From a virus: DNA of 60,228 bases. Location: positions 1 through 60,228 of the IMG/VR virus record IMGVR_UViG_3300017971_000310, one strand, 5' to 3'. Shown one piece after another: positions 3,108 to 59,830 of this stretch. Each line of letters begins with the position of its first letter. Position 1 is the stretch's first letter. Below the pieces are notes generated by a model, which was not told the origin of the DNA, made no database searches, and saw only the letters and a list, made by a program, of their open reading frames with translations. The position numbers and the translations under genes were made by a program.

Positions 3108-3260
3108 ATGACAAAGCGTAAGCTATTAGCAATATGGGCATTCCCATTCTGGTTGATCGGACGTATAGTAGGGCTAGCAGTGGCCATGCTTAAGTGGGCG
3201 ATGTATGCAATCATCACAGGATATTGGGAGGGGAGGGAGTTAATTGAATCTGTTAGATAG
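3108..3260 (+). CDS. Small membrane protein upstream of portal
   Basis: A 50-residue frame beginning MTKRKLLAIW with two closely spaced hydrophobic segments (about residues 6-24 and 26-42) and a basic N-terminus, so probably inserted in the cytoplasmic membrane. It overlaps the start of the portal gene by 17 bases, and the portal ribosome-binding site lies inside it. No strong ribosome-binding site precedes its own ATG. Function unknown. Confidence 0.45.
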   Translation: MTKRKLLAIWAFPFWLIGRIVGLAVAMLKWAMYAIITGYWEGRELIESVR

Positions 3261-6240
3261 AATTATAAAGACCTCCCGTCGTAATGTATATGGGACTAAG
3301 AAGCTCCCGTTCATTTGGCCGGATTGGAGGGGCGGTACTCCGCAGTGGCACATAGTTGACCTGCAATCATATATTAATGAGGGATTTAACCTCAATACGT
3401 TAATTTATTCTGCAATTATGTACAAAGTTCGTGCCATTGGCCAAGCCCCGCTACGGGCATATACTGGGGATTTTAAGCATCCGGAGGTATTACCCCCAGA
3501 CCACCCTATGACTATGTTGGCGGCCAGGCCAAATGAGCATCAATCGTTCAAGGAGTTTCAGGGGCAGAATATTGTTTATCTGAATCTGGCTGGGAACTGT
3601 TACATATTCCTCGACTACGAAAAGATCACAGACAAAATGCCACGAGCCATGTATTCACTACGGCCGGACAGAACGTATGTAATACCAGACAAGGGCAAGC
3701 CGGGCATTAAGGGCTATTTATACGTTCCAGAGGGGACCGCTGTGCGGGATGGGGTTCCTATTTTACCTCAGCATATGATACATACAAAGTTCCCTAATCC
3801 CGGTGACCCATTAGAGGGGATGGGGGAGGGGCTATCCCCAATGAGTCCATTGGCACGTAGTGCAGATGTAGATAATAGTGTAACTCACTTTTTGAAGCTG
3901 TTCTTCGAGAAGGGCGTTATGATGCCCGGTCTGTTAAGTTTTCCAGAGCCATTGGACGATACTACTATAGCAGAAACACGTCAACGTTGGAAGGACATCT
4001 ACGGCGGGTATCTAAATTGGGCCGAAGAGATCGGAATGGTTGGGCGTGGGGCCACATACCAACGTATTGGCCTATCGTTTGAGGAAATGGGATTTGGGGA
4101 GTTAGATACACGTAACGAGACGCGTATTTTGGGGCCGTTCGGGGTCCCTCCTATTCTAATCGGGGCTAAGGCGGGACTTGAGAGTTCAACATATAGTAAT
4201 TATGGTCAGGCTAGAAAGGCGTGTTGGGAGGATACATTAGTTCCCGAGCTTGGGCTATATGAGGTAGATTTTCAATATTATCTTAAGCATCCGGACGGAT
4301 GGGTGGCGTTCGATACAAGCAAGGTCCCAGCCCTACAGAAAGACATTCCCACATTGGTTACAGCGGCCCATCAGATGTGGACAATGGGTGTCCCAGCCAA
4401 TCAGGCGTTCTATACAGTGGGATTGAATGTGGAGCCTGTACCAGGCGGGGATATTGGGTATCTACCGATGGCGATTATACCTACTGGAACGGAGCCAGGG
4501 GGAACCCCAGTTATGCCGGAGCCGCCGGTCCGTCCAGTCGATCAAGAGGAAATGCGGCGAAAAAAAGTTCCTGGCCCCTCAGGGGCCTGGAAACTTAGGT
4601 TCTGGAAGGCATTTGATGTACAGGCTAAGAACTGGGAGGGAGCATTTGGACTAGCAGCAGATAGCCAATTTGAGGTAGATAAGCGGGGTGTACTGGCTGC
4701 GCTACACAGAGGTAAGGCAAGGGCTATACAAGACAAGGCTACCATAAACTGGAGTCGTGTCGAAGAGGACGTTTACAACTATTTGAGAAACGCTGGTGAA
4801 GGGTGGAGGTCTACGTTCGTACCATTGTACCAGGGTTTGATAGAAGATAGAGCACAAGTGTTGACTGAACAATTCGGCATGTCGTTTGATGTGCGGAACT
4901 GGTTAGCTGAGGCGTTTCTGACTGACCCAGAGTTTGTGATACCGTTTGCCGAGCAGCCACTTATTGATACCACACAAGAACACGTCAAGCAATTATTGCA
5001 AGCTGCTCAAGAGAATGGATGGGGCATTGACGAGACTTCCAATAACCTGGAGAAACTATTCAACCAGTACGTTGTCGGGGATGGACGACCAGAGGACTTT
5101 TGGTTCCTAGAACGTATGCCACCTCACCGCCGGGAATACATTGCAAGGACAGAAACTATACGGGCCAGCAATTATGGTAGTTTCGAGACATACAAGGCTT
5201 GGGGGGCAGAAGGTAAGGAGTGGTTATCGACACCGGATAATAGGACCAGGGATACCCACGTAGAAGTCAATGGGCAGAAGCGGAAGATAGACGAACCGTT
5301 TGATGTAGGTGGGGAGAAACTGATGTACCCAGCTGATCCTGCTGGTAGTGCTAAAGAAGTTCTCCAATGTCGTTGCACAACCTTGCCCGTATTGAAGATG
5401 GAAGAGCCCTCCTTTGACCGGGCAGTGGAACAGTTAGATGCATATAATTGGAAGGTAGGCGAAGATACTTATGTAGAGATGTTGAAAAAGTCAGATCCCA
5501 GATGGGATAGGGGAAAACTTAATGCCAGGCAGATTGGCCTAATCCGTGTTGGGGATCAAGAGACATTGATTTTGGCAGATGGTGTGTGGGAAGGCGGGAA
5601 GCTAATAGATGTGTCTGCCAAACAACGAAACAGTCTGATCGAAGAAGCAGTCATACCATGGCTACAGAAGATTCCTGGGGAACATGTACAAGGATTACAT
5701 CGTGTTGTGTTTACAAATAATGTTTCTGGTATGGCAAGTGGTGATTATCATTCCATAGCCCTAAAATATAGAACCGGGGTGATGGAAAATGCAGCGGGAT
5801 GGATAAACATACATGGGTGGCAGGAATATTATGAGCATGGTGGAGTAGCTAATATAGTCAGTACGCTGAAGCATGAGTTGGGCCATCATGTATGGGATTA
5901 TGTCTTAAGTGATGCGGATAGGATAAGGTATGCTAATGGTTTGGGTATCCCAACAAGTGATCCGCATGCTTTGGGATATCAGTATGAGAATTTTGATACG
6001 CTAAGGCTGGTGTATGAGACTGAGGTTGGGAAAGATATACCAATGATCAGTTACTATGGACAGACAAATGTATTTGAGGATTTTGCAGAATTATATAAAG
6101 GATATAGCAGTATTGCGGGAGAAATGGATAATTCCATAAATTATGAATCTTATAGTAGTTTACGTATACTATTTGACCCATATACACAGCAAGCGGTCGA
6201 TTTAAGAATGGCCTTATTGAGGGGGGATATATGGCCATGA
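3244..6240 (+). CDS. Portal protein fused to MuF-like head morphogenesis and zincin-like domains
   Basis: A 998-residue protein. The start is TTG 3244, preceded by the purine-rich GGGAGGGGAGGGAG. Residues about 1-420 are an HK97-type portal, the dodecameric ring through which DNA enters ('LNTLIYSAIMYKVRAIGQAPL', 'GPFGVPPILIGAKAGLESSTYSNYGQA'). Residues about 540-720 resemble the MuF/SPP1 gp7 minor head protein ('REYIARTETIRASNYGS', 'STPDNRTRDTHVEVNG', 'LQCRCTTLPV'). Residues about 750-998 contain HELGH at 877-881 and EDFAE at 945-949, the pattern of a zinc metallopeptidase with HExxH plus a distal Glu. Portal and MuF are usually separate adjacent genes, so the three-part fusion is unusual. 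Portal and MuF are well supported; peptidase activity is inferred from motifs. Confidence 0.85.
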   Translation: MNLLDRIIKTSRRNVYGTKKLPFIWPDWRGGTPQWHIVDLQSYINEGFNLNTLIYSAIMYKVRAIGQAPLRAYTGDFKHPEVLPPDHPMTMLAARPNEHQSFKEFQGQNIVYLNLAGNCYIFLDYEKITDKMPRAMYSLRPDRTYVIPDKGKPGIKGYLYVPEGTAVRDGVPILPQHMIHTKFPNPGDPLEGMGEGLSPMSPLARSADVDNSVTHFLKLFFEKGVMMPGLLSFPEPLDDTTIAETRQRWKDIYGGYLNWAEEIGMVGRGATYQRIGLSFEEMGFGELDTRNETRILGPFGVPPILIGAKAGLESSTYSNYGQARKACWEDTLVPELGLYEVDFQYYLKHPDGWVAFDTSKVPALQKDIPTLVTAAHQMWTMGVPANQAFYTVGLNVEPVPGGDIGYLPMAIIPTGTEPGGTPVMPEPPVRPVDQEEMRRKKVPGPSGAWKLRFWKAFDVQAKNWEGAFGLAADSQFEVDKRGVLAALHRGKARAIQDKATINWSRVEEDVYNYLRNAGEGWRSTFVPLYQGLIEDRAQVLTEQFGMSFDVRNWLAEAFLTDPEFVIPFAEQPLIDTTQEHVKQLLQAAQENGWGIDETSNNLEKLFNQYVVGDGRPEDFWFLERMPPHRREYIARTETIRASNYGSFETYKAWGAEGKEWLSTPDNRTRDTHVEVNGQKRKIDEPFDVGGEKLMYPADPAGSAKEVLQCRCTTLPVLKMEEPSFDRAVEQLDAYNWKVGEDTYVEMLKKSDPRWDRGKLNARQIGLIRVGDQETLILADGVWEGGKLIDVSAKQRNSLIEEAVIPWLQKIPGEHVQGLHRVVFTNNVSGMASGDYHSIALKYRTGVMENAAGWINIHGWQEYYEHGGVANIVSTLKHELGHHVWDYVLSDADRIRYANGLGIPTSDPHALGYQYENFDTLRLVYETEVGKDIPMISYYGQTNVFEDFAELYKGYSSIAGEMDNSINYESYSSLRILFDPYTQQAVDLRMALLRGDIWP

Positions 6241-8809: not shown

Positions 8810-10153
8810 ATGAATTACAAGGAGATGCTCCGGGAGGCACGGAGTCTCTTCGAGAAGGCGACCCAACTTCATGCGAAGGCACGTGAGACTGAGGATGCTG
8901 ATGAGCGCAAGGCTCTTCTAGAGCAGGCCGATCAGTTGTCCGAGCAAGCACGTACCATCAAGGAAGATGGGCTCAAGTTCCGGGAGATCGAAATGTCCGC
9001 CAAGGAGCTAGATGAGGAGATTGAGCGGGTTACACAGGAGAAGGAAAAGCAGACTCCCAGTGTACCAGGCTCAAACGGGTTCAAGGAGTGGAACGAGTTC
9101 CTACATGCCTGCTATAAGGCAGGACATCGGGAACCTGGCGTTAGGCAGCGGGATGAACGCTTGGTCTACTTCAAAGATGAGGCCGTCGGTGGGCATGACC
9201 AGAAGCAGATGGTCGAGAGTGTTGGAGCTAGTGGTGGGTTCCTGGTTCCTACAGAGTTTCTGGCCCAGTTGCAGGCTGTAGCTGCGGAATCGTCTATCGT
9301 ACGACCACGTTCTACTATTATCCGTATGGCGAGACGGGCTATTGATATCCCGGTGTTGGATCAGACTGGGACGACCTCTAGCCAGCCGCACTGGTTCGGT
9401 GGGATGTTGGCGTACTGGGCGGAGGAAGCGGCCGAGAAGACCATTACCACGGCAGAGTTCCGCAAGGTGGAGCTGGTAGCACATAAGCTGATTATGTATA
9501 CCCGCGCCAGTGATGAGCTGTTGGACGATGCAGCTATTTCACTGTCCGACTTCCTGGCGGGGCCGCTGGGGTTTCCTGGTGCTGTGGCGTGGCATGAGGA
9601 TTATGCGTTCCTGCGTGGGACTGGTGCTGGACAGCCGTTCGGTATTATATCGGCGGTCAACCAGCCAACCATTGTAGTCGCTAGAACTGCCGCTAATAAT
9701 GTCTACTACGGAGATCTGGTCAATATGATGGAGAGCTTCTTGCCCAGCGCCAATGGCGTTTGGGTTGCTCACCAATCTGTTATGTCCAATCTGATGACTA
9801 TGATGGATCAGGCAGGCGGCGCGGCCAACACTGGTACGTATATCTGGGGTAGTGCGGCCGATGGGGTTCCGGCCCGACTGTTGGGCTTGCCCATTATCTT
9901 CACAGAAAAGACGCCCCGGATTGGGACACAGGGTGACGTTCTCCTGGCGGATATGAGATACTATCTAATTGGGGATCGTCAGGCCACAACTGTTGAGAGC
10001 ACGCAGTACGACTACTGGAGATATGATCAGACAAGTTGGCGTGCTGTTCACCGTGTTGATGGGCAGCCTTGGTTGAGTGCGCCCCTGACGCTACAGGATG
10101 GGACCTCGCAGTTCAGTCCTTTTGTCATCCTTGGCGATGCAGAGAGCTCTTAG
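8810..10153 (+). CDS. Major capsid protein, HK97 fold
   Basis: A 447-residue protein starting 13 bases after the protease gene, with AGGAGG before the ATG. Residues 1-90 are a charged coiled-coil delta/scaffold domain (KEMLREARSLFEKATQLHAK). 'SVGASGGFLVPTEF' then opens the mature shell domain, as in the HK97 phage_capsid family, probably close to the protease cleavage region. The later 'LRGTGAGQPFGI' is also typical of the family. It forms the icosahedral shell. Confidence 0.9.
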   Translation: MNYKEMLREARSLFEKATQLHAKARETEDADERKALLEQADQLSEQARTIKEDGLKFREIEMSAKELDEEIERVTQEKEKQTPSVPGSNGFKEWNEFLHACYKAGHREPGVRQRDERLVYFKDEAVGGHDQKQMVESVGASGGFLVPTEFLAQLQAVAAESSIVRPRSTIIRMARRAIDIPVLDQTGTTSSQPHWFGGMLAYWAEEAAEKTITTAEFRKVELVAHKLIMYTRASDELLDDAAISLSDFLAGPLGFPGAVAWHEDYAFLRGTGAGQPFGIISAVNQPTIVVARTAANNVYYGDLVNMMESFLPSANGVWVAHQSVMSNLMTMMDQAGGAANTGTYIWGSAADGVPARLLGLPIIFTEKTPRIGTQGDVLLADMRYYLIGDRQATTVESTQYDYWRYDQTSWRAVHRVDGQPWLSAPLTLQDGTSQFSPFVILGDAESS

Positions 10154-10170: not shown

Positions 10171-10617
10171 ATGAGTGATTATACAGCACGCTTGAGCGAG
10201 CAGCTTTATCCGCTGGATGTTGAGCATGCAGATAGCCAGGATGCTGGAACGCATAATGGTACTTGGGTTGCTGTCAGTACGTATCATCGCGTCTGGTTTG
10301 TTCTGGACGTTGGTGATATGGCACAGGGTGCGACCCTGGATGCTGGGATTCAGCAGGCTACGACAACTGGTGGGGCGGGAGCTAAGGCAATTACTGGTAA
10401 GACGATCACCCAGCTAGCGCAGGCTGATGGGGATGGTGGGGATCTGGTATGCATTGAGCTACAGACAGAGGAATTGGATGTGGACGGTGGGTTCGACTGT
10501 GTCCGGTTCTATGTTACAGTGGCCAATGCTGCTGTGGAGTATAGTGCGATTCTTTATGGGTGTTCGCCTAGATTCCTGCCCGTACCCACGACCAATTGGG
10601 AAGAGATTGTCGGTTAG
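10171..10617 (+). CDS. Probable head decoration or capsid-stabilising protein
   Basis: A 148-residue beta-rich protein with AGGAGG upstream, 17 bases after the capsid gene. It has no signal peptide or membrane segment. Small proteins in this position (MSDYTARLSEQLYPLDVEHAD...) are common in HK97-like siphophages and often coat the shell. Its family could not be confirmed from motifs, so the assignment rests on position, size and composition. Confidence 0.5.
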   Translation: MSDYTARLSEQLYPLDVEHADSQDAGTHNGTWVAVSTYHRVWFVLDVGDMAQGATLDAGIQQATTTGGAGAKAITGKTITQLAQADGDGGDLVCIELQTEELDVDGGFDCVRFYVTVANAAVEYSAILYGCSPRFLPVPTTNWEEIVG

Positions 10618-10866: not shown

Positions 10867-11514
10867 ATGGCTAAAATCTGGATTCGATGTCTTACTATAG
10901 TCAGGTCAACCGATCAACATGGCAGGCCCTCAGTCTACCATCCTGGGGATTGGGCCAAGGTTGGCAAACATGAGGCCCGTCAATTAGTTGCACAGGGAAG
11001 CGCTGAAATACCTAATGTGCAGACTAGGCAGACTGCGTATGATTGGTACGATTGCGGGGTAGTTCTTAGGGGGAATACGGCTCCTGGACGTGCTGCCCTG
11101 GAGAAGCATTATCCTGGGCTAAACGTCACAAATGGTGGATTAGATCTAACATACTCTAGAAATCTACTATGGGATGCCACATCAAAAATGAATATGCGCT
11201 TCTTACCCGTTGGGTACGAACGGATGGTTAATGGCTGGCAGATGGCTGTGCCTCTAGTGGACTATGACCTATTAGCCACAGATATCGGTACAGAGGAGGA
11301 ACGGGCTTATACGAAATCTATAATACGGGATTTGCGTGTACCAGTGTACGACACGAATATTATATTTGCTGTAAGATGTAATGATGTCCAGGCTTGGTTA
11401 GATAGTTGGAAACAGGAACAGAAGAAGGGTGGGGATATACGTCTATCGTTCTTACGGGCGTTATATATAACTAAGCCAATCATATGTGCGTTGCCGGTGA
11501 CTTGGAAACAATGA
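10867..11514 (+). CDS. Hypothetical protein, first gene of the glycan cassette
   Basis: A 215-residue protein, probably cytoplasmic. 'YHPGDWAKVGKHEARQLVAQGSAEIP' near residues 24-50 resembles small beta-domains seen in phage head-tail proteins; the rest is not recognised. No ribosome-binding site is visible before ATG 10867. The stop overlaps the next ATG (ATGA), so it is coupled to the first glycosyltransferase. It may take part in glycan transfer or be a structural protein left in front of the cassette. Confidence 0.55.
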   Translation: MAKIWIRCLTIVRSTDQHGRPSVYHPGDWAKVGKHEARQLVAQGSAEIPNVQTRQTAYDWYDCGVVLRGNTAPGRAALEKHYPGLNVTNGGLDLTYSRNLLWDATSKMNMRFLPVGYERMVNGWQMAVPLVDYDLLATDIGTEEERAYTKSIIRDLRVPVYDTNIIFAVRCNDVQAWLDSWKQEQKKGGDIRLSFLRALYITKPIICALPVTWKQ

Positions 11515-12434
11515 GAATAATTGCGTATCCGTTGGGAGACTTGAATACAGCGTCTTCTAGGTATAGGGCATACTGGCCAGCAGAAGAGCTTGGGGGCAAG
11601 CGGTTTGCTGTTGCCACGACGGATAATGACTGGGAACAATCTACCATTGTAATGTTTCAACGTGCCTGTACTGTAGCCTATCAAGATATAGCCAAGCGGG
11701 CACATAATACCAGGAAGTTTGTAGTATACGATTACACAGATTTCTATTGGAGGACTGTTGGCGTAGATAAACCCCCAGATAGTGGGGAACTTAAAATGGT
11801 ACAGTATGCCGATCTGTTGACGTGTTGTAACCAGGATGATGCGTGGCTACTACGTCGTACGTTTAATAAGCCAGTCCGTATCCTACCAAATATGCAGAAA
11901 TTATCTCTTTACGTAAAGCAGAAAGTCTACGAAAAGACAGATTGCCCTGTGGTGTTGTGGGTAGGATACAACCATAATATTCGGGCACTGAAATCCATGT
12001 GGGCAGGATTACAGGAAGTTGCTAATAAGGGAATACAGTTTTCTGTTCTAATTGTCAATAACGATGGGGTAGTTCCCAAGCTGGTTCTACCACGCAATAT
12101 AGAGGCAGTTCCATGGTCCTTAAAGAATCTAGGCGATATTATGTGTAGAGGGGATGTGGCAATAAATCCACAGATACCTTGTGCTAATGGTAGATACTAC
12201 AAGGACAATAATAAGAGTGTAACCGCTTGGGCACATGGGTTGGCCTGTTTATCTTTTGATGAGGTAAAGAATTGGGCCAGGGAATTAGAGTGGCCATTGA
12301 TAGATCGAGACAATAGGGCAGAAGAGGGGGAGTATAACAGACTGCGGGCAAGGGATTATGACGTCAGTGTTATGGCTCCTAAGTGGTGGGATATATTGGT
12401 GGAGGAATACCAGTGGTGGAAAGGTCCCCGCTAA
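11511..12434 (+). CDS. Glycosyltransferase, GT4-like
   Basis: A protein of 307 residues; ATG 11511 is chosen because it overlaps the preceding TGA. The opening 'MRIIAYPLGDLNTASSRYRAYWPAEEL' and the central 'VLWVGYNHNIRALKSMWAGLQ' and 'VPWSLKNLGDIMCRGDVAINPQ' match the two Rossmann domains of GT-B glycosyltransferases. The C-terminal donor site (SVTAWAHGLACLS) replaces the usual E-x7-E pattern. It probably transfers a sugar from a nucleotide-sugar donor. The acceptor is unknown. Confidence 0.7.
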   Translation: MRIIAYPLGDLNTASSRYRAYWPAEELGGKRFAVATTDNDWEQSTIVMFQRACTVAYQDIAKRAHNTRKFVVYDYTDFYWRTVGVDKPPDSGELKMVQYADLLTCCNQDDAWLLRRTFNKPVRILPNMQKLSLYVKQKVYEKTDCPVVLWVGYNHNIRALKSMWAGLQEVANKGIQFSVLIVNNDGVVPKLVLPRNIEAVPWSLKNLGDIMCRGDVAINPQIPCANGRYYKDNNKSVTAWAHGLACLSFDEVKNWARELEWPLIDRDNRAEEGEYNRLRARDYDVSVMAPKWWDILVEEYQWWKGPR

Positions 12435-12790
12435 AAATAGTATCGGATAGGCGAGGTTCCCTGGCAGAACTTTTTAGAGGAGATTGGGGACAGGTAAATG
12501 TGGTGGAAGTTTCCCCTGGCGCTTTGAGAGGCTGCCATAGACATAACAAGACAAATGAAGCTTGGGCATTTCTATATGGGATGGGTGTATTATACATGGA
12601 AGGGGAACACGGTACAGTAGAACGTATAGATGTATCCAGAGGCGACCATATATTTCTGCCTGCTGGTACGGGCCACGCCATTCGGAACACGGGACCGGAA
12701 TTATTGGTATTTGTCTATTATATGGATCATATGTATAACCAGGAGAATCCAGATAAGGAACCATGGCTAGTAGAGGAGTTGTTTACGTAG
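12413..12790 (+). CDS. Cupin sugar isomerase/epimerase-like protein (FdtA/WxcM-like)
   Basis: A protein of 125 residues from GTG 12413, which has GGAGG seven bases upstream. The double-stranded beta-helix is evident: 'DRRGSLAELFRGDWGQVNVVEVSPGALRGCHRH' and 'GDHIFLPAGTGHAIRN'. This is the pattern of sugar 3,4-ketoisomerases and dTDP-4-dehydrorhamnose epimerase-like cupins acting on nucleotide-linked deoxysugars. It overlaps both flanking genes. It probably prepares a sugar for the neighbouring transferases. Confidence 0.7.
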   Translation: MVERSPLKIVSDRRGSLAELFRGDWGQVNVVEVSPGALRGCHRHNKTNEAWAFLYGMGVLYMEGEHGTVERIDVSRGDHIFLPAGTGHAIRNTGPELLVFVYYMDHMYNQENPDKEPWLVEELFT

Positions 12791-13362
12791 CTGTTGGCCC
12801 CAATGCTAAGGAAGAGGCAAAAAAGAGCATACGAACATTGAGACGTCATAATAATCTAGATGTGCAGGTTATATCCGATGGGCTGATTAATGGGTGTAAT
12901 ACAGTTACATTCAATAATCCGGGGCGTGGGGCACGACGGGCAAAGTTGAGCATACATAATCTCGTGCCATGGGATAATGTACTGTATATAGATGCAGATA
13001 CCAGAGTACATGGGAACTTAGAGGTTGGATTCGATATATTGGAGGATGGTTGGGATCTTGTTATAGTGCCAAGTGAAAATCAGAATGAGAATGCGTTATG
13101 GCACGTCAGAGAGGAGGAGCGGGAAGCAACCTTACAAGTAGTTCCTGCCCCCTTGCAGTTACAGGGCGGCTTGTTCTGGTTCAATAGAGAACGTTGCAAA
13201 TATATGTTTGATGGTTGGCTGGATGAGTGGTTACGTTGGTCCGGTAAAGATCAAGCTGCTTTGTTAAGGGCATTAGAAAAAGAGCATGTTAAGATATGGC
13301 TTATGGGTAGACCGTTCAATGGGGGTAGCGTAGTAGAGCATCTATTTGGGAGGGCACGGTGA
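12763..13362 (+). CDS. Glycosyltransferase, GT8-like with DxD motif
   Basis: A 199-residue protein with the GT-A pattern: 'VVYVAVGPNAKEEAKKSIRTLRR' at the N-terminus, Asp77-Ala-Asp79 in 'VLYIDADTRVHG' for metal and nucleotide-sugar binding, and 'LQGGLFWFNRERC' with 'GKDQAALLRALEKE' in the acceptor half. These fit short GT8-like transferases of phages and bacteria. Its start overlaps the cupin gene. The C-terminal half of the 14921-16558 protein and the fragment at 57074-57247 look related. Confidence 0.7.
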   Translation: MASRGVVYVAVGPNAKEEAKKSIRTLRRHNNLDVQVISDGLINGCNTVTFNNPGRGARRAKLSIHNLVPWDNVLYIDADTRVHGNLEVGFDILEDGWDLVIVPSENQNENALWHVREEEREATLQVVPAPLQLQGGLFWFNRERCKYMFDGWLDEWLRWSGKDQAALLRALEKEHVKIWLMGRPFNGGSVVEHLFGRAR

Positions 13363-14051
13363 TACCTGACATCTTTATGATGACATATAACCGCCCACAA
13401 ATGTTATCCAGAACGGTTCAATGTCTATACGATCGTACTACTACGCCATTTAATTTACATATAGTGGATGATGGTAGTTATGCTGGTCAGATTGTGCTGT
13501 TAGGTTTATGGGGAGACGGCAAGGCCAAGACAATAGTTATGCGAGAAACCAATAGAGGGGTTCCGTATAATATTAGATTAATGGCTACCCTAACAGAAAG
13601 CGACCCAGTGATACTAATGGGAGACGACCATTTATGTCCACTGGTAGAACCGGATTGGTTGACTCGTGGTCTTATGGCTATGGATGAGAATCTCAATATG
13701 GGCATGTTAGCGTTGAACGACCCATCCTGTAATACTAACAACAGACGACACGTCAAGGAACGTGCTAAGCCCATCACAATCTGTGAGTTTGTCGGTGGTA
13801 CGTTTCTATTCATACGCAGGGAAATTATAGAGTCATTTGTCTACCCGAAAGCTTGGGAGGCTATACAATCTCCATTGAAGAGCTGGGCTAATCATACAAG
13901 AGAGCTTGGGTATGATGTAGGGTATCTTGTGGATACTTATTGTCAACATATTGGGAAATTCTCGGCTAGGATGGGAACAGATATAAGCGAACATCTAATC
14001 GAACCGATAGATCCTGTAACATTGGAGCCAGCAGAAGAATATGCCTGGTAA
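13359..14051 (+). CDS. Glycosyltransferase family 2-like
   Basis: A 230-residue GT-A protein from GTG 13359 (GTGA overlap with the previous stop). 'DIFMMTYNRPQMLSRTVQCLYDRT' and 'LHIVDDGSY' are the classic GT2 N-terminal strand and first Asp pair. 'VILMGDDHLCP' holds the DxD-like metal site, and 'FVGGTFLFIRREI' is the acceptor-side motif. It probably transfers a sugar in the same pathway as its neighbours. Confidence 0.75.
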   Translation: MIPDIFMMTYNRPQMLSRTVQCLYDRTTTPFNLHIVDDGSYAGQIVLLGLWGDGKAKTIVMRETNRGVPYNIRLMATLTESDPVILMGDDHLCPLVEPDWLTRGLMAMDENLNMGMLALNDPSCNTNNRRHVKERAKPITICEFVGGTFLFIRREIIESFVYPKAWEAIQSPLKSWANHTRELGYDVGYLVDTYCQHIGKFSARMGTDISEHLIEPIDPVTLEPAEEYAW

Positions 14052-14943
14052 CATACTATTCATAGGGGGAACGGGCAGGTGTGGTACTACCCTGTTGCGC
14101 GACTGTTTATGTAAACATCCGGATATGACCACTACACCATATAAGTGGAGATTCATAAACGATCCCGATGGCCTGGTCGATTTCTGTTCCGGTACTGCAT
14201 CGACGTGGTCTCCCTACATCTACGATGCGAAATTAAAAAGGCTAGAGAAGCTATTCAGTCTACTGGAATATAAATGTGGTGATGGACCTTATTGGGACTA
14301 TGCCCTGGGAATGTGGCTACCTAATTACAGACGTCACGTGGATACGCTAATTGGAGAGCTTACCCAGTTTTCCTATAGCAGAGGCTGGGTGGGATCGCCC
14401 AATGTGGAAACAGCTATATATAGATACCCTGCTAGAGGATTATTGGGAGCGGTGCGGGATTTTATAACGAATATAGTGAATGATTATTTGACCCAGACTG
14501 GCGGCAGTATATTTGTGGATGCGGATACGTGGAACATACTGTTCTTCAGGGATATTTTACACATATTACCAGAGGCTAGGTTAATTCATATATGGCGGGA
14601 TCCAATAGAGACCGTATGTTCTTTGGCCGAACAGCGTTGGATGCCAGATGATATTGAGCAGGCAGCTATGATATACAGAGATTTATTGATGCGCTGGGAG
14701 GCTGTGCGACATTCAATACCATATTACACATACACCCAAATCCAATATGAGGACTTAGTAAATAAACCAGAGGAAACCTTATATAAAATATGTGATTGGA
14801 TAGGCATAGACTACACTAAAGAAATGCTACTGCCTATTGGGAGTCCGACTAGCAGGGTGGCTAATTTAGATACTATACAGGAGTTGTGTAATATAACACG
14901 TTTCACCAGGGAAGCCGGGTATGAGAGTACACATTGTCTGTGA
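14041..14943 (+). CDS. PAPS-dependent sulfotransferase
   Basis: A 300-residue protein. 'FIGGTGRCGTTLLRD' (from residue 7) is the 5'-phosphosulfate loop. 'ARLIHIWRDPIETVCSL' near residues 178-195 is the 3'-phosphate-binding motif with Arg and Ser. 'YTQIQYEDLVNKPEETLYKICDWIGI' is the conserved C-terminal element. Sulfotransferases move sulfate from PAPS to hydroxyl groups of sugars or other acceptors. Its place between glycosyltransferase genes suggests that the phage-made glycan is sulfated. Rare in phages. Confidence 0.8.
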   Translation: MPGNILFIGGTGRCGTTLLRDCLCKHPDMTTTPYKWRFINDPDGLVDFCSGTASTWSPYIYDAKLKRLEKLFSLLEYKCGDGPYWDYALGMWLPNYRRHVDTLIGELTQFSYSRGWVGSPNVETAIYRYPARGLLGAVRDFITNIVNDYLTQTGGSIFVDADTWNILFFRDILHILPEARLIHIWRDPIETVCSLAEQRWMPDDIEQAAMIYRDLLMRWEAVRHSIPYYTYTQIQYEDLVNKPEETLYKICDWIGIDYTKEMLLPIGSPTSRVANLDTIQELCNITRFTREAGYESTHCL

Positions 14944-16558
14944 ACGTCTTAATACGTCTCGCATATTACCTAGGCTAGCCAAATATTTGGCCGAACACAA
15001 TAATTGGACAGTCGGGGAGGAGCCCAGTACAGCAACAGATCTGAACTATTTTATTCCTTACATAACATGGCGTCAGCATTTTAATGGGTGGAAGAAAACT
15101 AAGCTAGCAGCATATTTTAGCCACTATGACATAAATAATAAAATGAAGGCTAAGTGGTGGCGGGAAGCGGCAGACGCCATGGATTTGTGTACCATAACAT
15201 CCAATCAATATAGGGAACTTTTGGATGCTAATAAGACAATATACGTCAGGCCCCCAGTGGAGGTCGATAGGTTCACAATAAATCCTTGGGGTAAGTCGCA
15301 AATGCCCATAGTCGGAGTGATGGGGTATGTATATGGGGATGGTCGCAAGGGGGAAGACTTAGTAGAGGAGCTACTTAAAACACCGATAGCCAATACAGTG
15401 GAATGGAGAGCTAGTGGTAGAGGCTGGCCAATTAAGACCGTCAGCTACTCATGGGAGGAATTACCCAAGTTTGTTCAGGGATTGGATGTATTATTGTGCC
15501 CATCTAAATTTGAAGGCGTGCCGATGCCGCCATTAGAGGCTTTGGCGTGTGGGGTAAAAATCGTAATCCCAATGGGTGTTGGGATGTTGGACGATCTGCC
15601 AGATATGCCGGGCATATATAGGTATGAGGCAGAGAATGTAGTCGATATGGCCCTTGCCCTAAAACGTGCATGTACTGGCACGGCCAATAGAGGGGATTTA
15701 CGTAACATAATCAAGGACACGTATACAGCGGCTACATGGTCGCAAGATCATAGAACAGGATTTGAGGAGCATTTTAGTAATGTGACAGTTGAAGCTAAGT
15801 TGCCAAAGTGGAAAGAGAGCTCTGGAGTCTATATAGTAGCGTTCGGGGAGCCCGCCAGAAAATGCGCCAACCTATGTATCGATTCTATACATAAACATAT
15901 GCCTGGCCTTCCAGTATGTTTAGCCGCCGCGGAACCACTGGGGCCAGAGGATGTATTTGTAAAACATAAGGACGCGGATATAGGGGGCCGTATAGCAAAA
16001 TTGTCCGCATACGCTTTAGCCCCCAAGGAATGGAATTATATACTGTATCTAGACGCGGATACCGAAGTTGTTGGTGATATAGGGTTTCTTTTTCAGGCGT
16101 TGCAGGATGGATGGGAATTCCTTATATGTAAGGATATGGACAAATATTCCACAGCGGTTATGATGAAACGCCCCGATAATAAAGACGAGTGTGAGGTGAC
16201 CTGGGATTTGTTAGGGGCACGAGAGGGCGCGCTACAGTATAATGGTGGAATGATGGGCTTTCGCCGCAACAAGAGAACTGCCAAGTTCTTTAATATGTGG
16301 AGAGAGGAATGGGAGCGTTGGGGCAAACGGGACCAGGGGGCCTTATTGCGGGCGTTATATAGACAGCCTTTGAGAATGTATGTATTAATGAACCAGTGGA
16401 ACGCATCAGATAGATATCCGTTGCCACCTGGCAATATAGCTATTATGCATCATAACGTAAAAGCTAGGCGCTGGGGTGGGATAGTCGATGGTAGATTAGA
16501 CTCAGCTATAGCATGGGGTAAGGTAGAAGAATGGGAGCGCCATCATGGATACAGATAA
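14921..16558 (+). CDS. Bifunctional glycosyltransferase: GT4-like plus GT8-like domains
   Basis: A 545-residue protein. Residues about 1-290 are a GT-B transferase, with 'IVGVMGYVYGDGRKGEDLVEEL' and 'GLDVLLCPSKFEGVPMPPLEALACG' carrying the E-x7-E donor site. Residues about 300-545 are a GT-A transferase with 'ILYLDADTEVVG' (DxD), 'LQYNGGMMGFRRN' and 'GKRDQGALLRALYRQ'. The second half resembles the separate transferase at 12763-13362. Such fusions usually add two sugars in sequence. The ATG overlaps the sulfotransferase stop region by 23 bases. Confidence 0.75.
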   Translation: MRVHIVCERLNTSRILPRLAKYLAEHNNWTVGEEPSTATDLNYFIPYITWRQHFNGWKKTKLAAYFSHYDINNKMKAKWWREAADAMDLCTITSNQYRELLDANKTIYVRPPVEVDRFTINPWGKSQMPIVGVMGYVYGDGRKGEDLVEELLKTPIANTVEWRASGRGWPIKTVSYSWEELPKFVQGLDVLLCPSKFEGVPMPPLEALACGVKIVIPMGVGMLDDLPDMPGIYRYEAENVVDMALALKRACTGTANRGDLRNIIKDTYTAATWSQDHRTGFEEHFSNVTVEAKLPKWKESSGVYIVAFGEPARKCANLCIDSIHKHMPGLPVCLAAAEPLGPEDVFVKHKDADIGGRIAKLSAYALAPKEWNYILYLDADTEVVGDIGFLFQALQDGWEFLICKDMDKYSTAVMMKRPDNKDECEVTWDLLGAREGALQYNGGMMGFRRNKRTAKFFNMWREEWERWGKRDQGALLRALYRQPLRMYVLMNQWNASDRYPLPPGNIAIMHHNVKARRWGGIVDGRLDSAIAWGKVEEWERHHGYR

Positions 16559-17168
16559 TAAACTAAAAGACAATCTTGTTAAAGAGCATCCAGAACTGGA
16601 GGAGATATTTCGCACAGTTAACAATCGAATTATTCGGTCTAAACGAGAGATATACGATTATCAGGCTGCGATGCTATACAAGTTGGCACTACCATATAAC
16701 TCAGAAGGTTGTAGGGCGTTAGAGATAGGATCTGCTTTTGGGTATTCTTGTTGGTTCATTGCCCATGCTATGTCAAACGCCAGGCGGATAACTACGTTGA
16801 ACCCAAAAGCCAAAGAATACCATCACACGGTTCGGGCGTTGTTACCGTTTGAGAACGTGCAGGTTATATGGATGCGGTCTTGGGATTATTTGAAATACTA
16901 CTCAAAGCCGGCATTTAATTTCATATTTGTGGATGGGGACCATGAGCAGGTTGCCAGGGACTTACCCTGGTTTAATCTCCTAAGACCGGGCGGGCTTATA
17001 TTGTTTCACGACTACGCGCCAGATGGTTCGGCTAGACCGGTCCCTACAGTGTACAATGTATTGAACGACGCCAAGCAACGGCTCAAGAGAGATTTTGATA
17101 TCTATATTGTGGATGACAATCAAGTGGGCATGGTAGGCTGGTATCGTCAAGAGGGGGAACAATTGTGA
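16545..17168 (+). CDS. SAM-dependent methyltransferase, family 24-like
   Basis: A 207-residue class I methyltransferase. 'CRALEIGSAFGYSCWFIA' is the glycine-rich SAM motif, 'FNFIFVDGDHEQVARDLPWF' the motif with Asp-Gly-Asp-His typical of family 24, and 'LRPGGLILFHDYAP' the following strand. These enzymes often methylate sugar hydroxyls. The context suggests methylation of the glycan made by neighbouring transferases. Confidence 0.75.
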   Translation: MDTDNKLKDNLVKEHPELEEIFRTVNNRIIRSKREIYDYQAAMLYKLALPYNSEGCRALEIGSAFGYSCWFIAHAMSNARRITTLNPKAKEYHHTVRALLPFENVQVIWMRSWDYLKYYSKPAFNFIFVDGDHEQVARDLPWFNLLRPGGLILFHDYAPDGSARPVPTVYNVLNDAKQRLKRDFDIYIVDDNQVGMVGWYRQEGEQL

Positions 17169-17611
17169 AGAGGCTCAATCTTGGCTGTGGCAAGGATGTT
17201 CGGGGGGATTGGATCAATCACGATATAAAACAGCACGACGCTGCTATAGATGTTGTATGGGACTTAAATAAGATACCCTGGCCCTGGGACGACAGCTCTG
17301 TAGATATGATCCACGCCATTAGCGTATTGGAGCACCTTAAGCTAACATTCATAGAATCCCTAGACGAGTGTTGGAGAATACTTAAGCCGGGAGGGGCACT
17401 TTACGTAAAGTTTCCCATCTACACTTCACCATTCATACATCATGACCCTACACATAGATGGTTCTGGGATGAGTCTACACCAAATTTTGTAGACCCGGCT
17501 ACGGATTTGGGCAAGCGATACAGTTATTATACGACTAGGAAATGGGAGACATTAGATAAGAAGGTTACGGATAAAAATTGCTGGATCACATTGAGACCAC
17601 TTAAGAAATGA
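17165..17611 (+). CDS. SAM-dependent methyltransferase, type 11-like
   Basis: A 148-residue, small class I methyltransferase. 'RLNLGCGKDVRGDWINHDI' is motif I, 'SVDMIHAISVLEHL' the acidic strand, and 'CWRILKPGGALYVKFP' the characteristic PGG turn. GTG 17165 overlaps the previous stop and the end overlaps the next ATG, so it is translationally coupled. Probably another glycan-modifying step. Confidence 0.75.
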   Translation: MKRLNLGCGKDVRGDWINHDIKQHDAAIDVVWDLNKIPWPWDDSSVDMIHAISVLEHLKLTFIESLDECWRILKPGGALYVKFPIYTSPFIHHDPTHRWFWDESTPNFVDPATDLGKRYSYYTTRKWETLDKKVTDKNCWITLRPLKK

Positions 17612-18471
17612 AGGTAGCATTAATACACAGGGAGGGACCTAGGGGAATAAATCGTTCTGTCGGATGGTGGGCGTACGATGTACCAGAGTTTGAGGTAACA
17701 CATTTCCCGGTTCCCAAGTATTCCAGACATAGTAAGAGTGAGTTCAAAGAGTTTGATATCATAATACAGGAGGATCACAAAACAAAAATAACATGGAGGG
17801 ATGACACGGATAGGCCGCCAAGATGCTATCATATTGTGGATTCGTTTAAGAGAGATCAATATCTAGACAGGCGGTATTATGCTACTGGAGCAGATTTATT
17901 ATTGGTGGATTGTGACAGTATAAAGCGGTTCAGAGATATTGCCCCAGTCAGGAGATTCAACTATTGTGTCAATGTAGAAAAGTTTTATGATATGGGTCTA
18001 GAGAGGGATATAGATATCGGATGGTATTATCGACCTAATTTTCCAGAACGTGGGGAGTTGGACCTATGGTTGAAAGGCTTTTGTAAGGAACATAATTGGG
18101 TATATAGTTCAGGGAAGCGTGTCAAAGGCAATTATGTAGAGTATCTAAACAGGACAAAGATATCTATAAATTTATGTAGATTTGACACTATGAGAACACA
18201 TAGGGTATTCGATTCCATGGCTTGTGGGTGTTGTTTGGTTACATCCCCAATTGCGTTTATAGCTGGGGAAGAACGGGAGGAAAATAAGCACTATCTAGTG
18301 TTCAGGAATTATGACCTATTAGCCAAGCATTTGATGTGGTTAATGGAGGGTAATTGGAAGGGCATAGCCGAGGCAGGAAAGGCTCTGGTGGACACATATC
18401 ATACATGGGATGTTCGGGCTAAAGAGCTTTATACTACACTGGTGAAGGAGTTTCCATGGCTAGGATCCTAA
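17608..18471 (+). CDS. Glycosyltransferase, CgeB/GT4-like
   Basis: A 287-residue protein with a GT-B C-terminal domain. 'IGWYYRPNFPERGELDLWLKGF' and 'YLNRTKISINLCRFDTMRTHRVFDSMACGCCLVTS' resemble the C-terminal domain of CgeB-type glycosyltransferases, where an N-terminal domain prepares the acceptor. Its last bases overlap the epimerase gene. The donor sugar is unknown. Confidence 0.65.
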   Translation: MKVALIHREGPRGINRSVGWWAYDVPEFEVTHFPVPKYSRHSKSEFKEFDIIIQEDHKTKITWRDDTDRPPRCYHIVDSFKRDQYLDRRYYATGADLLLVDCDSIKRFRDIAPVRRFNYCVNVEKFYDMGLERDIDIGWYYRPNFPERGELDLWLKGFCKEHNWVYSSGKRVKGNYVEYLNRTKISINLCRFDTMRTHRVFDSMACGCCLVTSPIAFIAGEEREENKHYLVFRNYDLLAKHLMWLMEGNWKGIAEAGKALVDTYHTWDVRAKELYTTLVKEFPWLGS

Positions 18472-19352
18472 TAACTGGTGGCGGTGGGTTCATAGGTGTA
18501 CATCTAGCAAACTGGTTCATTCGGTCCGGTCATCAGGTATTTGTCGTAGATGATTGCTCTAAATGGGGGGATCTATCGTTTAGATACCTGGAGGGATGTA
18601 CGCTGGTACAGGGTAGTATCTTAGACGATAGGGTTTATGGCTGGTTTCCACGTCCAAGCATAATATATCATCTAGCTGTGATACCTATAGGGCAGGCCGA
18701 AGATGAACCGTTGCGTAGCATACAGGTGAATATTGCCGGTACAATGAAGGTGGCTAATTATGCACAGCGTGTAAAGGCAGATGGGCTAGTCTATGTGTCA
18801 TCGGCTAGTATCTACGGAAATGGTCCTATTCCTAGCACAGAATATAGCGAGCCACATGTAGGGTGCATCTACGCTGCGGAGAAACTGATAGGTGAGAATA
18901 TATGTCTTAGCGCACGTTTACCTGTTACTATATTTAGATTGACTAATACGTATGGACCAGATATTGATGGGCATAAGATACGTCATAGGGGCAGTATAGG
19001 CAGAATAATTTACGCCCTATACGATGGTGGACCGTTTGCACTATTTGGGGATGGTTCACATACTAGGGATTACGTCTATATAGATGATGTAGTTAATGCC
19101 CTGGTTCGGGTGGATGGTAATGGTATATATAATGTAGGGACTGGAATAGAAACCACCTCCGCTAGATTAGTAGAGCTAATAGGAAATATAATGGGTAAGG
19201 ATGTACATATACGGCAGGCTCCCTTGCGAAGGATTGATTACATAAAACGCAGGGCGTTGGATATTAGTAGAATTAGGCGAGATTTGAATTGGGAGCCTAC
19301 GGTAGACCTAGAGACTGGGCTAGCTAGATGTGTTGCTAGTATGGAGGAATAG
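18456..19352 (+). CDS. NAD-dependent sugar epimerase/dehydratase (extended SDR)
   Basis: A 298-residue protein. 'ILITGGGGFIGVHLANWF' is the NAD(P)-binding GxxGxxG motif. Ser115-118 in 'YVSSASIYG' and Tyr139/Lys143 in 'CIYAAEK' form the SDR catalytic set. 'RLTNTYGPD' and 'DYVYIDDVVNAL' complete the nucleotide-sugar epimerase pattern. It probably converts a nucleotide sugar (UDP-, GDP- or dTDP-linked). It is the last gene of the glycan cassette. Confidence 0.85.
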   Translation: MARILITGGGGFIGVHLANWFIRSGHQVFVVDDCSKWGDLSFRYLEGCTLVQGSILDDRVYGWFPRPSIIYHLAVIPIGQAEDEPLRSIQVNIAGTMKVANYAQRVKADGLVYVSSASIYGNGPIPSTEYSEPHVGCIYAAEKLIGENICLSARLPVTIFRLTNTYGPDIDGHKIRHRGSIGRIIYALYDGGPFALFGDGSHTRDYVYIDDVVNALVRVDGNGIYNVGTGIETTSARLVELIGNIMGKDVHIRQAPLRRIDYIKRRALDISRIRRDLNWEPTVDLETGLARCVASMEE

Positions 19353-19353
19353 T

Positions 19354-20031
19354 ATGGCATATGCCACATTCACAGAATTTAAGGAGCATACAACTCTACG
19401 AGATACAAGTGGTGATAATCAGGCCAGTGTAGAAAGACTATTGGATGCGGCTAGTAGAAATATAGATCGTTTCTGTAATCGTCCAGATGGGTTCGAGGCA
19501 GATAGTTCGGCCAGTGCCAGAACATACGCTGGGTCCGGTACGCCCTATCAACGTATAGACGAGTGTATAGAAATAACTCTAATAGCAGTTAAGGATTCAG
19601 CCACAGACGATAGCTATACTAGCTGGGGGGATGATGATTGGGTAGCGTATACAGGTGATCCAAGACGTCCAGATTTTAATAGATTACCCTATACCGGAAT
19701 AATGGTCGATCCTACTGGGGGTGAGAGTGTATTCACCAGTGGGAAATTCACCACAAGAGCCGGATTTAGGCCAACAACAGAGGTATACAGAGGTGTGCCT
19801 ACGGTACAGGTTACGGCTAAATGGGGATATAGCGAAGATATACCCGAAGACATAAAAATGGCCTGTATAATGCAGGCAGCTAGGTGGTTCAAACGTATGC
19901 AAGGGAATATGGCGGATGCTGTAGCCAGCGGAGACTTTGGTATGATGATGTATGTCCAACAGCTAGATCCGGATATACAACAGCTATTAATTGCTGGACG
20001 GTATGTAAGGCCGGCAGTAGGGCTAACGTGA
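19354..20031 (+). CDS. Head-tail connector protein (gp6-like)
   Basis: A protein of 225 residues. ATG 19354 is chosen because GGAGG lies seven bases upstream. 'SVERLLDAASRNIDRFCNRP' at the N-terminus and 'EDIPEDIKMACIMQAARWFKR' near the C-terminus are typical of the helical HK97 gp6-like adaptor that docks below the portal. It resumes the virion operon after the glycan cassette. Confidence 0.7.
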   Translation: MAYATFTEFKEHTTLRDTSGDNQASVERLLDAASRNIDRFCNRPDGFEADSSASARTYAGSGTPYQRIDECIEITLIAVKDSATDDSYTSWGDDDWVAYTGDPRRPDFNRLPYTGIMVDPTGGESVFTSGKFTTRAGFRPTTEVYRGVPTVQVTAKWGYSEDIPEDIKMACIMQAARWFKRMQGNMADAVASGDFGMMMYVQQLDPDIQQLLIAGRYVRPAVGLT

Positions 20032-21566
20032 CAGGTATTAGGGTAGAAATACAGGGGCTGAAGGAAGCTCAAGCTAAGATGGAGCAGGTAGCCAGGGATG
20101 TCCATGGTACTCCTATGGTAGACGCCATGAAGCAGGCTACATTGCTAGTAGAGGGGGATGCCAAACGAAATGCCCCTGTGGACACAGGAAGATTACGGGC
20201 CAGTATAATGCCGGAGGTTCGGGTAGCTGGGGTATTTAATAGGACTGTTCAGGGTGTGGTGGGTAGCAATGTCCAATATGCGTGTATCTTTAATGCACAC
20301 ACTAATATAATCACTAAGAGTGGGGGTAAAACTATTGGACAAATAGAAGTAGGGGATTATGTTTTATCTCAGGATGGGCTATATCACAAGGTAGTAGCCA
20401 AGAATATATTCCCTGCCACGGAGAAACCGGAGCTAATAGATATAGAAGCATATTGGCGGGCGGGCCATAATCATAATATTACATTGACTATAGATCATAA
20501 AGTATTAGTGTATAGAAATGGTAGAAATAAGTGGGTTGAGGCTGGGGAATTAGAGATAGGAGATCAGTTATATCAACGTAAGAAGATAGCACACAATAAG
20601 GGTAAATCAAAGTATTCCTCCCGTATATGCATAAATTGTGGCAAAGAATATGAACGCGGGCATGGCGAGGGGAAAACTATGGGAATAAAATATTGTTCCC
20701 ACGAATGTAGATATGAGCATTGGGCCGCTGGCAATAACCCACATATAGGCAGGAAAAGGGCGGCGTCTACAAGAAAGAAAATTAGTGAACGAATTAGGGA
20801 ACGGATACAAAACGATCCTCAATCACGGTTAAATTGTATATTAGCACGCAGGGGATTTGTAACATCACACGAACAAGAAATTAAAGATTGGTTAGACGAT
20901 ATGAATGCTGAATATAAATTCCAAGAACCTATAGGAAAACACGTCGTTGACTTTTATGTACCCTCAATAAATACTATATTTGAGGCCGATGGAGCATATT
21001 GGCACCAGGATCAGCAGAAAGATATAGATCGGGACAAGAAATTACTTAGCAGCATCCCGGAGGCTTGTATATTTCACATACACTTCTATGATAATAGATT
21101 TAGCCCAGAGTTAAATACTTGTCCTATTGATAATGTGTATTATGTCCCTGTAAATCCTGGAATGTCTAGCTTCACCAATCTAGATGTTCTATGTGCGAGT
21201 GAGGTAGTAGCTTTGAGAAGATGGATATATGTAAGGCCACCAGGTAAGTGGGGGGCTAAGGTAGCAAAACTGTATGACCTATCGGTTGAAGGAATGCATT
21301 CTTTCTTTGCTAATGGGTTATTGGTATCAAACAGTCATGTTGAAATGGGAACTGGACCTGCTATTGGCAATTCAGCCTACTCCCCGCCCGCCACCAATGT
21401 GGCTGGCTGGGCACATAGGCATGGGATATCTGCCTATACTGTAGTAGAGGCTATCCGTAGGAAGGGGACTAAAGCTTACAGATACTTACAAAGGGCCGTA
21501 GAAGATAATGCCGATAGAATACAAAGTATTCTGGCAGGGGCGTTGGATAAGATAGCAGACAAATGA
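20028..21566 (+). CDS. HK97 gp10-like tail completion protein containing an intein
   Basis: A precursor of 512 residues from GTG 20028 (GTGA overlap). The N-extein (85 residues) and C-extein (77 residues) together give 162 residues, the usual size of gp10-like proteins that seal the head-tail joint. 'DAKRNAPVDTGRLRASI' and, once spliced, 'YA|SHVEMGTGPAIG' are family signatures. A 350-residue intein interrupts exactly this conserved site. If splicing fails, the product would not work. Assignment of host protein and intein is strong; activity is not tested. Confidence 0.85.
   Translation: MTGIRVEIQGLKEAQAKMEQVARDVHGTPMVDAMKQATLLVEGDAKRNAPVDTGRLRASIMPEVRVAGVFNRTVQGVVGSNVQYACIFNAHTNIITKSGGKTIGQIEVGDYVLSQDGLYHKVVAKNIFPATEKPELIDIEAYWRAGHNHNITLTIDHKVLVYRNGRNKWVEAGELEIGDQLYQRKKIAHNKGKSKYSSRICINCGKEYERGHGEGKTMGIKYCSHECRYEHWAAGNNPHIGRKRAASTRKKISERIRERIQNDPQSRLNCILARRGFVTSHEQEIKDWLDDMNAEYKFQEPIGKHVVDFYVPSINTIFEADGAYWHQDQQKDIDRDKKLLSSIPEACIFHIHFYDNRFSPELNTCPIDNVYYVPVNPGMSSFTNLDVLCASEVVALRRWIYVRPPGKWGAKVAKLYDLSVEGMHSFFANGLLVSNSHVEMGTGPAIGNSAYSPPATNVAGWAHRHGISAYTVVEAIRRKGTKAYRYLQRAVEDNADRIQSILAGALDKIADK
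20283..21332 (+). mobile_element. Intein with NUMOD3-like and EDxHD (Vsr-like) homing endonuclease
   Basis: The intein starts at Cys1 ('CIFNAHTNIITKSGGKTIG', block A) and has block B 'NITLTIDHKVLVY'. It ends in 'HSFFANGLLVSN', followed by extein Ser. The penultimate residue is Ser where His is normal. Inserted between the Hint halves are a CxxC...CxxxC zinc finger (about precursor residues 199-235), a NUMOD3-like segment 'NNPHIGRKRAASTRKKISER' and a Vsr-like nuclease core. The core has Glu319, Asp321 and His326 in 'FEADGAYWH' and a downstream Asp-rich helix. This is the EDxHD class of homing endonuclease. Confidence 0.85.
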
Positions 21567-39018: not shown

Positions 39019-39756
39019 TCAGAAGTCATCTAATCCTTCACATGCGCCAAGCAGCCAAGCGTCGCATTTCCTATTCCACGCCATACACGCCTCCCGGTTA
39101 TGACGGCCAGGGAATTCTGCCCTAGTCTTAAGTTCGTGCCTCAATGTTAAAATCCTATCCTCATATTCCGATACCTGCTGTGGAGTGCGTGTTGTTGAAT
39201 ACCAGTATATATCTCCGGTGTCTTTGACGCCCACGCAGAAGGCCACATTATGGCATCCTGTTAACCAGGCGTATCCTGTTAGCTGATCGCTCAATTCGAC
39301 ATCCCTGTCTTCGTATGGTCTACTGGCCGTCTTCCAATCAATAACAGTTCTTACACCATCGACCATGCCAATGCAATCCACCTTCCCGACATAATGATCG
39401 TTAGCCATCATCTGCTCACTGATTACTGGCTCGAACTTCAGCTGCTGTAATTTCTGGTCAAAGTTGTCAATCAAGCGACTCCCAATAGCTATCCAATACT
39501 CCGGGTTCGGCCCCTTGCCTTCTCCCTCCCTATAGGATTTTTCAAAAACCTGCTTAGCCATTACGGCAGGATATTCTTCCTCTTTCCATCCGTGGCACAG
39601 TGCCTCCATCCCATCGTGAAGGGCGATGCCAAAACACAGGGGCTGAGGTTTCTCCTCCATCCTGATTTTTAATATGTAACTAATGTACCAAAGTTTCGGA
39701 CATTGCTGATACATGCTAACTTGCGTATTCGATAATTTGCCTATTTGACGATCCAT
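39019..39756 (-). CDS. PD-(D/E)XK nuclease (RecB/Cas4-like)
   Basis: A 245-residue protein. 'LSNTQVSMYQQCPKLWYISYI' is the typical N-terminal motif. 'YVGKVDCIGMVDGVRTVIDWKT' gives the catalytic Asp...Asp-x-Lys, and 'DQLTGYAWL' the QxxxY motif. Cys in the N-terminal 'QQCPK' and three Cys near the C-terminus could bind an iron-sulfur cluster as in Cas4/AddB-like nucleases. It probably processes DNA ends in phage recombination. Confidence 0.8.
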   Translation of the reverse strand: MDRQIGKLSNTQVSMYQQCPKLWYISYILKIRMEEKPQPLCFGIALHDGMEALCHGWKEEEYPAVMAKQVFEKSYREGEGKGPNPEYWIAIGSRLIDNFDQKLQQLKFEPVISEQMMANDHYVGKVDCIGMVDGVRTVIDWKTASRPYEDRDVELSDQLTGYAWLTGCHNVAFCVGVKDTGDIYWYSTTRTPQQVSEYEDRILTLRHELKTRAEFPGRHNREACMAWNRKCDAWLLGACEGLDDF

Positions 39757-44287: not shown

Positions 44288-44356
44288 TGTGAGCACCAAA
44301 CTAAGTCACGTCGCGTTTTCTTATACAATAGCGTAGTAGCCAACAGAACAATTTTC

Positions 44357-59750: not shown

Positions 59751-59754
59751 GGAG

Positions 59755-59827: not shown

Positions 59828-59830
59828 AGC

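Follow-up and report, generated by a model that had tools for sequence, protein, structure and literature searches.

A conserved multi-enzyme island in the head operon of an uncultivated Caudoviricetes lineage and its probable role in virion glycosylation

What does a tailed phage make with a block of sugar-modifying enzymes encoded inside its head operon? This question is raised by IMG/VR record IMGVR_UViG_3300017971_000310, the whole of which (60,228 bases) is the window analysed here. A first-pass annotation had read positions 10867-19352 as a cassette of tightly overlapping genes, and this is confirmed: the segment holds 11 open reading frames (ORFs), all on the plus strand and with unchanged coordinates, each overlapping the next by 4-52 nucleotides and the last one overlapping the head-tail connector gene. 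The segment is rather likely to be a virion-glycosylation island of one uncultivated Caudoviricetes lineage, in which core genes would build a glycan on a head protein and variable genes would set its composition. The product is probably a strain-variable coat, sulfated in the window phage. The ORFs of the island are:

10867-11514, plus strand: ORF1, a module of about 50 amino acids followed by a GT-A glycosyltransferase (GT) domain without a DXD motif (AlphaFold2 model, mean predicted local distance difference test (pLDDT) 88; structural matches for the GT-A domain and the N-terminal module)
11484-12434, plus strand: possible GT-B glycosyltransferase, a guess from sequence
12383-12790, plus strand: cupin, start codon uncertain (PF14667, 2e-13)
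12763-13362, plus strand: GT8-type glycosyltransferase with DAD motif, core (homology to the GT8 half of the fusion)
13359-14051, plus strand: GT2-type glycosyltransferase, variable (PF00535, 8.6e-10)
14041-14943, plus strand: putative sulfotransferase of the 3'-phosphoadenosine 5'-phosphosulfate (PAPS) type, variable (PF13469, 2.1e-25)
14921-16558, plus strand: GT4-GT8 fusion glycosyltransferase, core (PF00534, 4e-7; GT8 sub-threshold)
16545-17168, plus strand: S-adenosylmethionine (SAM) methyltransferase of Methyltransf_24 type (PF13578, 6.2e-15)
17165-17611, plus strand: SAM methyltransferase of Methyltransf_11 type (PF08241, 2.3e-7)
17608-18471, plus strand: GT1_2-type glycosyltransferase (PF13524, 3.2e-13)
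18456-19352, plus strand: nucleotide-sugar epimerase/dehydratase of the short-chain dehydrogenase/reductase (SDR) family (PF01370, 3.8e-38)

A Pfam scan names the cupin, GT2, Sulfotransfer_3, GT1/GT4, GT1_2 and SDR epimerase families and both SAM methyltransferases, and leaves ORF1, the ORF at 11484-12434 and the GT8-like ORF at 12763-13362 without a family match. The ORF at 11484-12434 looks GT-B-like by eye and gave no match in NCBIfam or PDB searches either. The first-pass count of at least five GT domains holds, with the GT8 at 12763, the GT2, the GT4 and GT8 of one protein and the GT1_2, and the DXD-less GT-A domain of ORF1 makes a sixth; the epimerase, the two methyltransferases and the PAPS-dependent sulfotransferase it had named are likewise borne out by their Pfam matches. 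Its "cupin isomerase" stands as a cupin, the isomerase label being over-specific: the protein is similar to the C-terminal domain of Cap5F (6e-8) and to oxalate decarboxylases (down to 1e-13). The epimerase is closest to UDP-glucose 4-epimerases (7ys8, 4.9e-35). The base composition of the island is ordinary relative to the rest of the genome, and promoter- and terminator-like sites in the segment are no more frequent than background. Outside the island, a PIG-L-type de-N-acetylase gene that overlaps a ThiF-like gene on the opposite strand (39741-40899) could encode an additional sugar enzyme.

The island lies between a jelly-roll cement-like gene and the connector gene, and its flanks comprise portal/MuF, protease, HK97 major capsid protein (MCP), cement-like, connector and gp10 genes. 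The placement between decoration-like and head-tail connector genes proposed in the first-pass annotation is thus upheld, since Pfam, PHROG and fold matches identify the flanks as genuine virion genes. The genes nearest to the island are:

8810-10153, plus strand: HK97-type MCP (PF05065, 3.9e-45; phrog_10)
10171-10617, plus strand: jelly-roll cement/decoration-like protein, candidate glycan acceptor (AlphaFold2 pLDDT 84; 3j4u_H, Z 9.0; phrog_28483)
19330-20031, plus strand: head-tail connector (phrog_442, 4.9e-17)

The model of the cement-like protein superposes on 3j4u_H, the capsid-securing jelly roll of phage BPP-1, over 110 residues at 3.2 Å; other jelly rolls reach an equal Z, and the match is one of fold only. 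The label "decoration-like" is a reasonable fit to this predicted structure.

The arrangement recurs across the lineage. Searches with the MCP and the connector found 33 and 25 viral loci, respectively, and profile searches found 61 loci with ORF1 and 80 with the GT4-GT8 fusion. Gene order was analysed in 94 non-redundant viral loci carrying the fusion, with counts taken where enough sequence exists. With few exceptions, the order is MCP, cement, ORF1, GT8, GT4-GT8, variable genes and connector. Upstream of the fusion and on the same strand lie GT8 (75 of 81 loci), ORF1 (64 of 65), cement (56 of 59) and MCP (35 of 38). Of the 25 loci that have 8 kb or more of downstream sequence, 19 show the connector there, and in the others the sequence may end before reaching it; a Methyltransf_24-type gene lies downstream of the fusion in 18 of 25. 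The distance from MCP to connector ranges from 3.8 to 16.4 kb in single island-bearing loci (41 values, about five of them duplicates from overlapping loci) and reaches 25.9 kb in whole records. The smallest island (L138) consists of ORF1, GT8, GT4-GT8 and one methyltransferase. Cassette-less relatives carry MCP, cement and connector (L033) or MCP, an HNH-like gene, cement and connector (L053, with the HNH-endonuclease-like gene, recognised by eye, at 9019-9555), and more MCP-cement-connector arrangements occur in bacterial genome assemblies (for example, L222). Because cement and connector adjoin in these relatives, the island fills one precise interval, from cement to connector. A one-off set of cargo genes is rejected because the island is lineage-wide.

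Downstream of the fusion, gene content differs from phage to phage and includes methyltransferases, GT1_2, GT2, epimerases, DegT aminotransferases and, by eye, an acyltransferase-like ORF. One island (G016) encodes a GH113-like glycoside hydrolase (L069:14730-16280; PF22612, 5.5e-53). Assemblies carrying members of the lineage are labelled Phycisphaerae, Anaerolineae and Gammaproteobacteria. No host is claimed, because alignment of the MCP against bacterial genomes yielded short or phage-only contigs in Phycisphaerae, Anaerolineae and one gammaproteobacterial metagenome-assembled genome, and the longest contig examined, of 55.7 kb, showed no evident host flank by inspection. The latter is a phage contig of the lineage in a Phycisphaerae-class assembly (G577 contig C70; L233 with L234-L236), and among the ORFs of its island one is sulfotransferase-like and another resembles a DegT aminotransferase.

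The core of the island consists of ORF1, GT8 and GT4-GT8. The GT8 protein at 12763-13362 is clearly homologous to the second half of the fusion, and both carry the DXD metal-binding motif. The fusion is 42-56% identical across eight aligned relatives, with its D-A-D invariant, and the strict hhhDAD motif occurs in 81 of 98 GT8 homologues and 79 of 99 fusion homologues, the remainder including truncated ORFs. ORF1 is the most constant gene and stands first in nearly every island. Its model comprises an N-terminal module of about 50 residues and a C-terminal domain that matches GT-A enzymes at Z about 9 over 135-175 residues. The DXD motif of metal-dependent catalysis is missing from ORF1: none of 103 homologues has the strict hhhDAD, and 7 have a loose pattern. 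ORF1 probably no longer catalyses. Structural matches of its N-terminal module are short phage proteins, some of them annotated as virion structural protein or head-to-tail connector, the closest of which superpose at 1.4-2.9 Å over about 50 residues. Achromobacter phage phiAxp-2 contributes a weaker match, a protein of 77 residues (10.3 Å over the whole alignment); in the first 40 kb of phiAxp-2, a coding sequence of that length, identified by its length, lies just after a capsid-position gene and before neck-position genes. A tblastn search of phages with the N-terminal module of one ORF1 homologue gave matches only at E of 4 or more, and PHROG and Pfam scans of ORF1 homologues gave nothing useful. 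On this module architecture, ORF1 is proposed to be a docking subunit.

The protein at 14041-14943 is, by family score and motifs, a PAPS-type sulfotransferase. It scores 90.7 bits with PF13469 against a curated cut-off of 27, and carries a 5'-phosphosulfate-binding (PSB)-like GTGRCGTTLL near its N-terminus and, about 170 residues on, a 3'-phosphate-binding-like RDPIETVCS, in which R and S are eight apart. It shows a short NoeE-like match (4e-8) and a likeness of the 5'-PSB region to tyrosylprotein sulfotransferases (E 0.007); in the PDB, polyketide sulfotransferases match it best. Single-sequence searches of sequenced phages and viral contigs found no relatives, and in an all-against-all comparison it does not recognise the other island sulfotransferases. 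Taken together, the island sulfotransferases form at least five mutually unrecognisable kinds, all in the variable part: a Stf0/Sulfotransfer_3-like group, a group from G031, G577 and G010, the window's own, a group from G005 and G011, and a Sulfotransfer_1 type. Such diversity is consistent with repeated recruitment, as judged from the all-against-all comparison and not from a tree with cellular homologues.

In the first set of 39 records, 8 score above the Sulfotransfer_3 cut-off, and of these about five are independent. PF13469 matches at E<=0.001 in 19 of 111 related viral records (39 + 41 + 31, two host-genome assemblies being left out), with 8 of the 19 above the curated cut-off. A control set of 50 random viral contigs longer than 10 kb (about 1.7 Mb, drawn by a 14-mer scan) gave one sub-threshold PF13469 match and none over the cut-off. 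Partial redundancy among the related records and the shortness of many of them make the enrichment an indication, not a calibrated test. The earlier remark on the rarity of viral sulfated glycans agrees with the small literature, whereas sulfotransferases themselves are not rare in this lineage (19/111 versus 1/50). An Anaerolineae assembly with a member contig (G081, source of L108) has 26 Sulfotransfer_3 matches. Should this assembly represent the host, the phage might plausibly be imitating sulfated glycans of its host.

How might these proteins act together? Overlap and position suggest joint production of capsid, cement and island proteins from the operon at a late stage of infection. Working in the cytoplasm, the core would start a short glycan on an abundant head protein and lengthen it there; the most likely acceptor is the cement or the capsid protein, whose genes lie directly upstream. 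GT8 and GT4-GT8 would add the first sugars, and accessory GTs would extend the glycan. The epimerase and perhaps the cupin would supply or alter sugars, while the methyltransferases and the sulfotransferase would cap the glycan, and the variable genes would thereby set its composition and caps. PAPS and nucleotide sugars are assumed to come from the host. The head-like N-terminal module of ORF1 may bind the capsid lattice or the cement protein, and its DXD-less GT-A domain may hold the active GTs, so that sugar would be added to assembling heads. Such a coat could serve to adjust adsorption, to protect the particle or to imitate glycans of the host surface. A more specific proposal, which we put forward tentatively and which is on balance doubtful, is that a head-region protein turned into a docking subunit: ORF1 would bind the capsid lattice and scaffold GT8 and GT4-GT8, and reshuffled enzymes would write a strain-specific, repeatedly sulfated coat. 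The particle surface would then diversify by enzyme swaps rather than by capsid residues.

The first-pass annotation had left it undecided whether the product decorates the particle or alters the host surface. Late remodelling of a host O-antigen, capsule or S-layer glycan, which would lessen sticking to debris or cause superinfection exclusion, would draw on the same kinds of proteins: such nucleotide-sugar enzymes and sulfotransferases also build bacterial surface polysaccharides, as the NoeE-like match and the kinship of the cupin to Cap5F illustrate. However, when 403 same-strand ORFs of related loci, each 100 residues long or longer, were scanned for hydropathy, a single ORF had an unmistakable hydrophobic segment and 14 were borderline, and no flippase, polymerase, initiating phosphoglycosyl transferase or oligosaccharyltransferase was apparent among them. 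Within the window cassette the highest 19-residue hydropathy is 1.72, and neither a gtrA-like membrane flippase nor the membrane-anchored transferase of gtrABC-type systems is evident. The paucity of hydrophobic segments therefore favours direct cytosolic modification of a protein. Phage-encoded GTs adjoin virion genes, as in phage virion glycosylation systems; the island keeps the same place within the head operon throughout the lineage; and the N-terminal module of ORF1 resembles small head-region proteins. The conserved position, this module and the near-absence of membrane proteins strengthen particle decoration, and the host-surface alternative is weakened to an unlikely one. It is less probable still that virions are glycosylated and the sulfotransferase acts not on the glycan but on a small molecule or on tyrosines in a protein of the virion or the host. 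The tyrosylprotein and polyketide sulfotransferase matches point that way, but each of them is short or weak; the gene itself lies between GT genes, and several unrelated kinds of sulfotransferase in one variable stretch fit glycan caps better.

Decoration of modified bases in the phage genome by the GTs and the sulfotransferase is very improbable. A role in DNA modification is proposed for phage GT/sulfotransferase systems in a passage of PMC10829341, citing Iyer et al. 2013. However, the locus is the head operon and not the replication arm, and a Pfam scan of 20 right-half proteins together with the head and cassette proteins, some small ORFs being outside it, found no thymidylate-synthase-like hydroxymethylase, TET/JBP-like oxygenase or base kinase. 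Several points nevertheless weigh against virion glycosylation. The lineage is known from sequence alone, the acceptor is a candidate only, and the membrane argument is a hydropathy scan. Lipid-linked precursors of the host could be substrates for soluble GTs. The precedent is no more than an analogy, because tblastn with ORF1, GT8 and GT4-GT8 against 50,697 sequenced phage records, mycobacteriophages included, gave no match, which leaves room for distant kinship.

Side observations concern the rest of the window. The portal and a Mu-F-like head protein are fused in one 998-residue ORF (3244-6240) with a possible metallopeptidase-like C-terminus, and LamG-like, glycoside hydrolase-like and beta-helix-like ORFs upstream of it (69-2964) are perhaps fibre or spike proteins. 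The gp10-like neck gene (19884-21566) holds an intein with a Hint domain and a DUF559 nuclease domain; in most relatives gp10 has about 150 amino acids and no intein. Five tRNA genes cluster at the right end (59677-60052), and two more lie at 44216-44429.

If virion glycosylation holds, a whole phage group would use a dedicated island of many enzymes to give its particles a variable, sulfated coat of its own making, and virion glycosylation would extend from a few mycobacteriophage GTs to an operon-scale, fast-changing trait. Phage sulfotransferases, so far listed as auxiliary metabolic genes without explanation, would gain a concrete possible role, and ORF1 would be a testable example of a glycosyltransferase that has lost catalysis and serves as a targeting subunit.

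In giant viruses and chloroviruses, virus-encoded soluble GTs are held to build complex capsid-protein glycans in the cytoplasm. Their hosts are eukaryotic and the capsid fold of these nucleocytoplasmic large DNA viruses (NCLDV) is different, and the likeness is an analogy only. The protein encoded next to the MCP here is a predicted jelly roll of a size similar to the BPP-1 cement protein (3j4u chain H) and matches its structure, at 17% identity and with other jelly rolls scoring as high. Phage sulfotransferase genes of Sulfotransfer_3 type are listed with unclear function for OM43 phages (PMC10580990) and Patescibacteria viruses (PMC12285232), in the latter together with epimerase/RmlD genes. 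The excerpts of these accounts give no head-operon context, whereas the genes of the window lineage lie in a conserved head-operon island. A literature search found no description of a sulfated phage virion glycan, the limited literature making this weak evidence of absence. Phage virion glycosylation itself is already known; what appears new, and undescribed for this phage group, is a conserved head-operon island of several genes in which sulfotransferases recur. According to the portion of PMC12363180 that cites Freeman et al. 2023, the mycobacteriophages Che8, Corndog and Myrna glycosylate capsid and tail proteins, the tail-tube included. As in the window lineage, the GTs are phage-encoded, and there they modify capsid or tail proteins of the particle. 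Glycosylation is proven in mycobacteriophages, whereas the window lineage is known here from its genes. Mycobacteriophages, as described in that portion, use one or a few GTs, whereas the island of the window lineage spans about 4-26 kb and encodes nucleotide-sugar enzymes, methyltransferases, sulfotransferases and, unlike the mycobacteriophage systems described there, a DXD-less GT fused to a head-like module.

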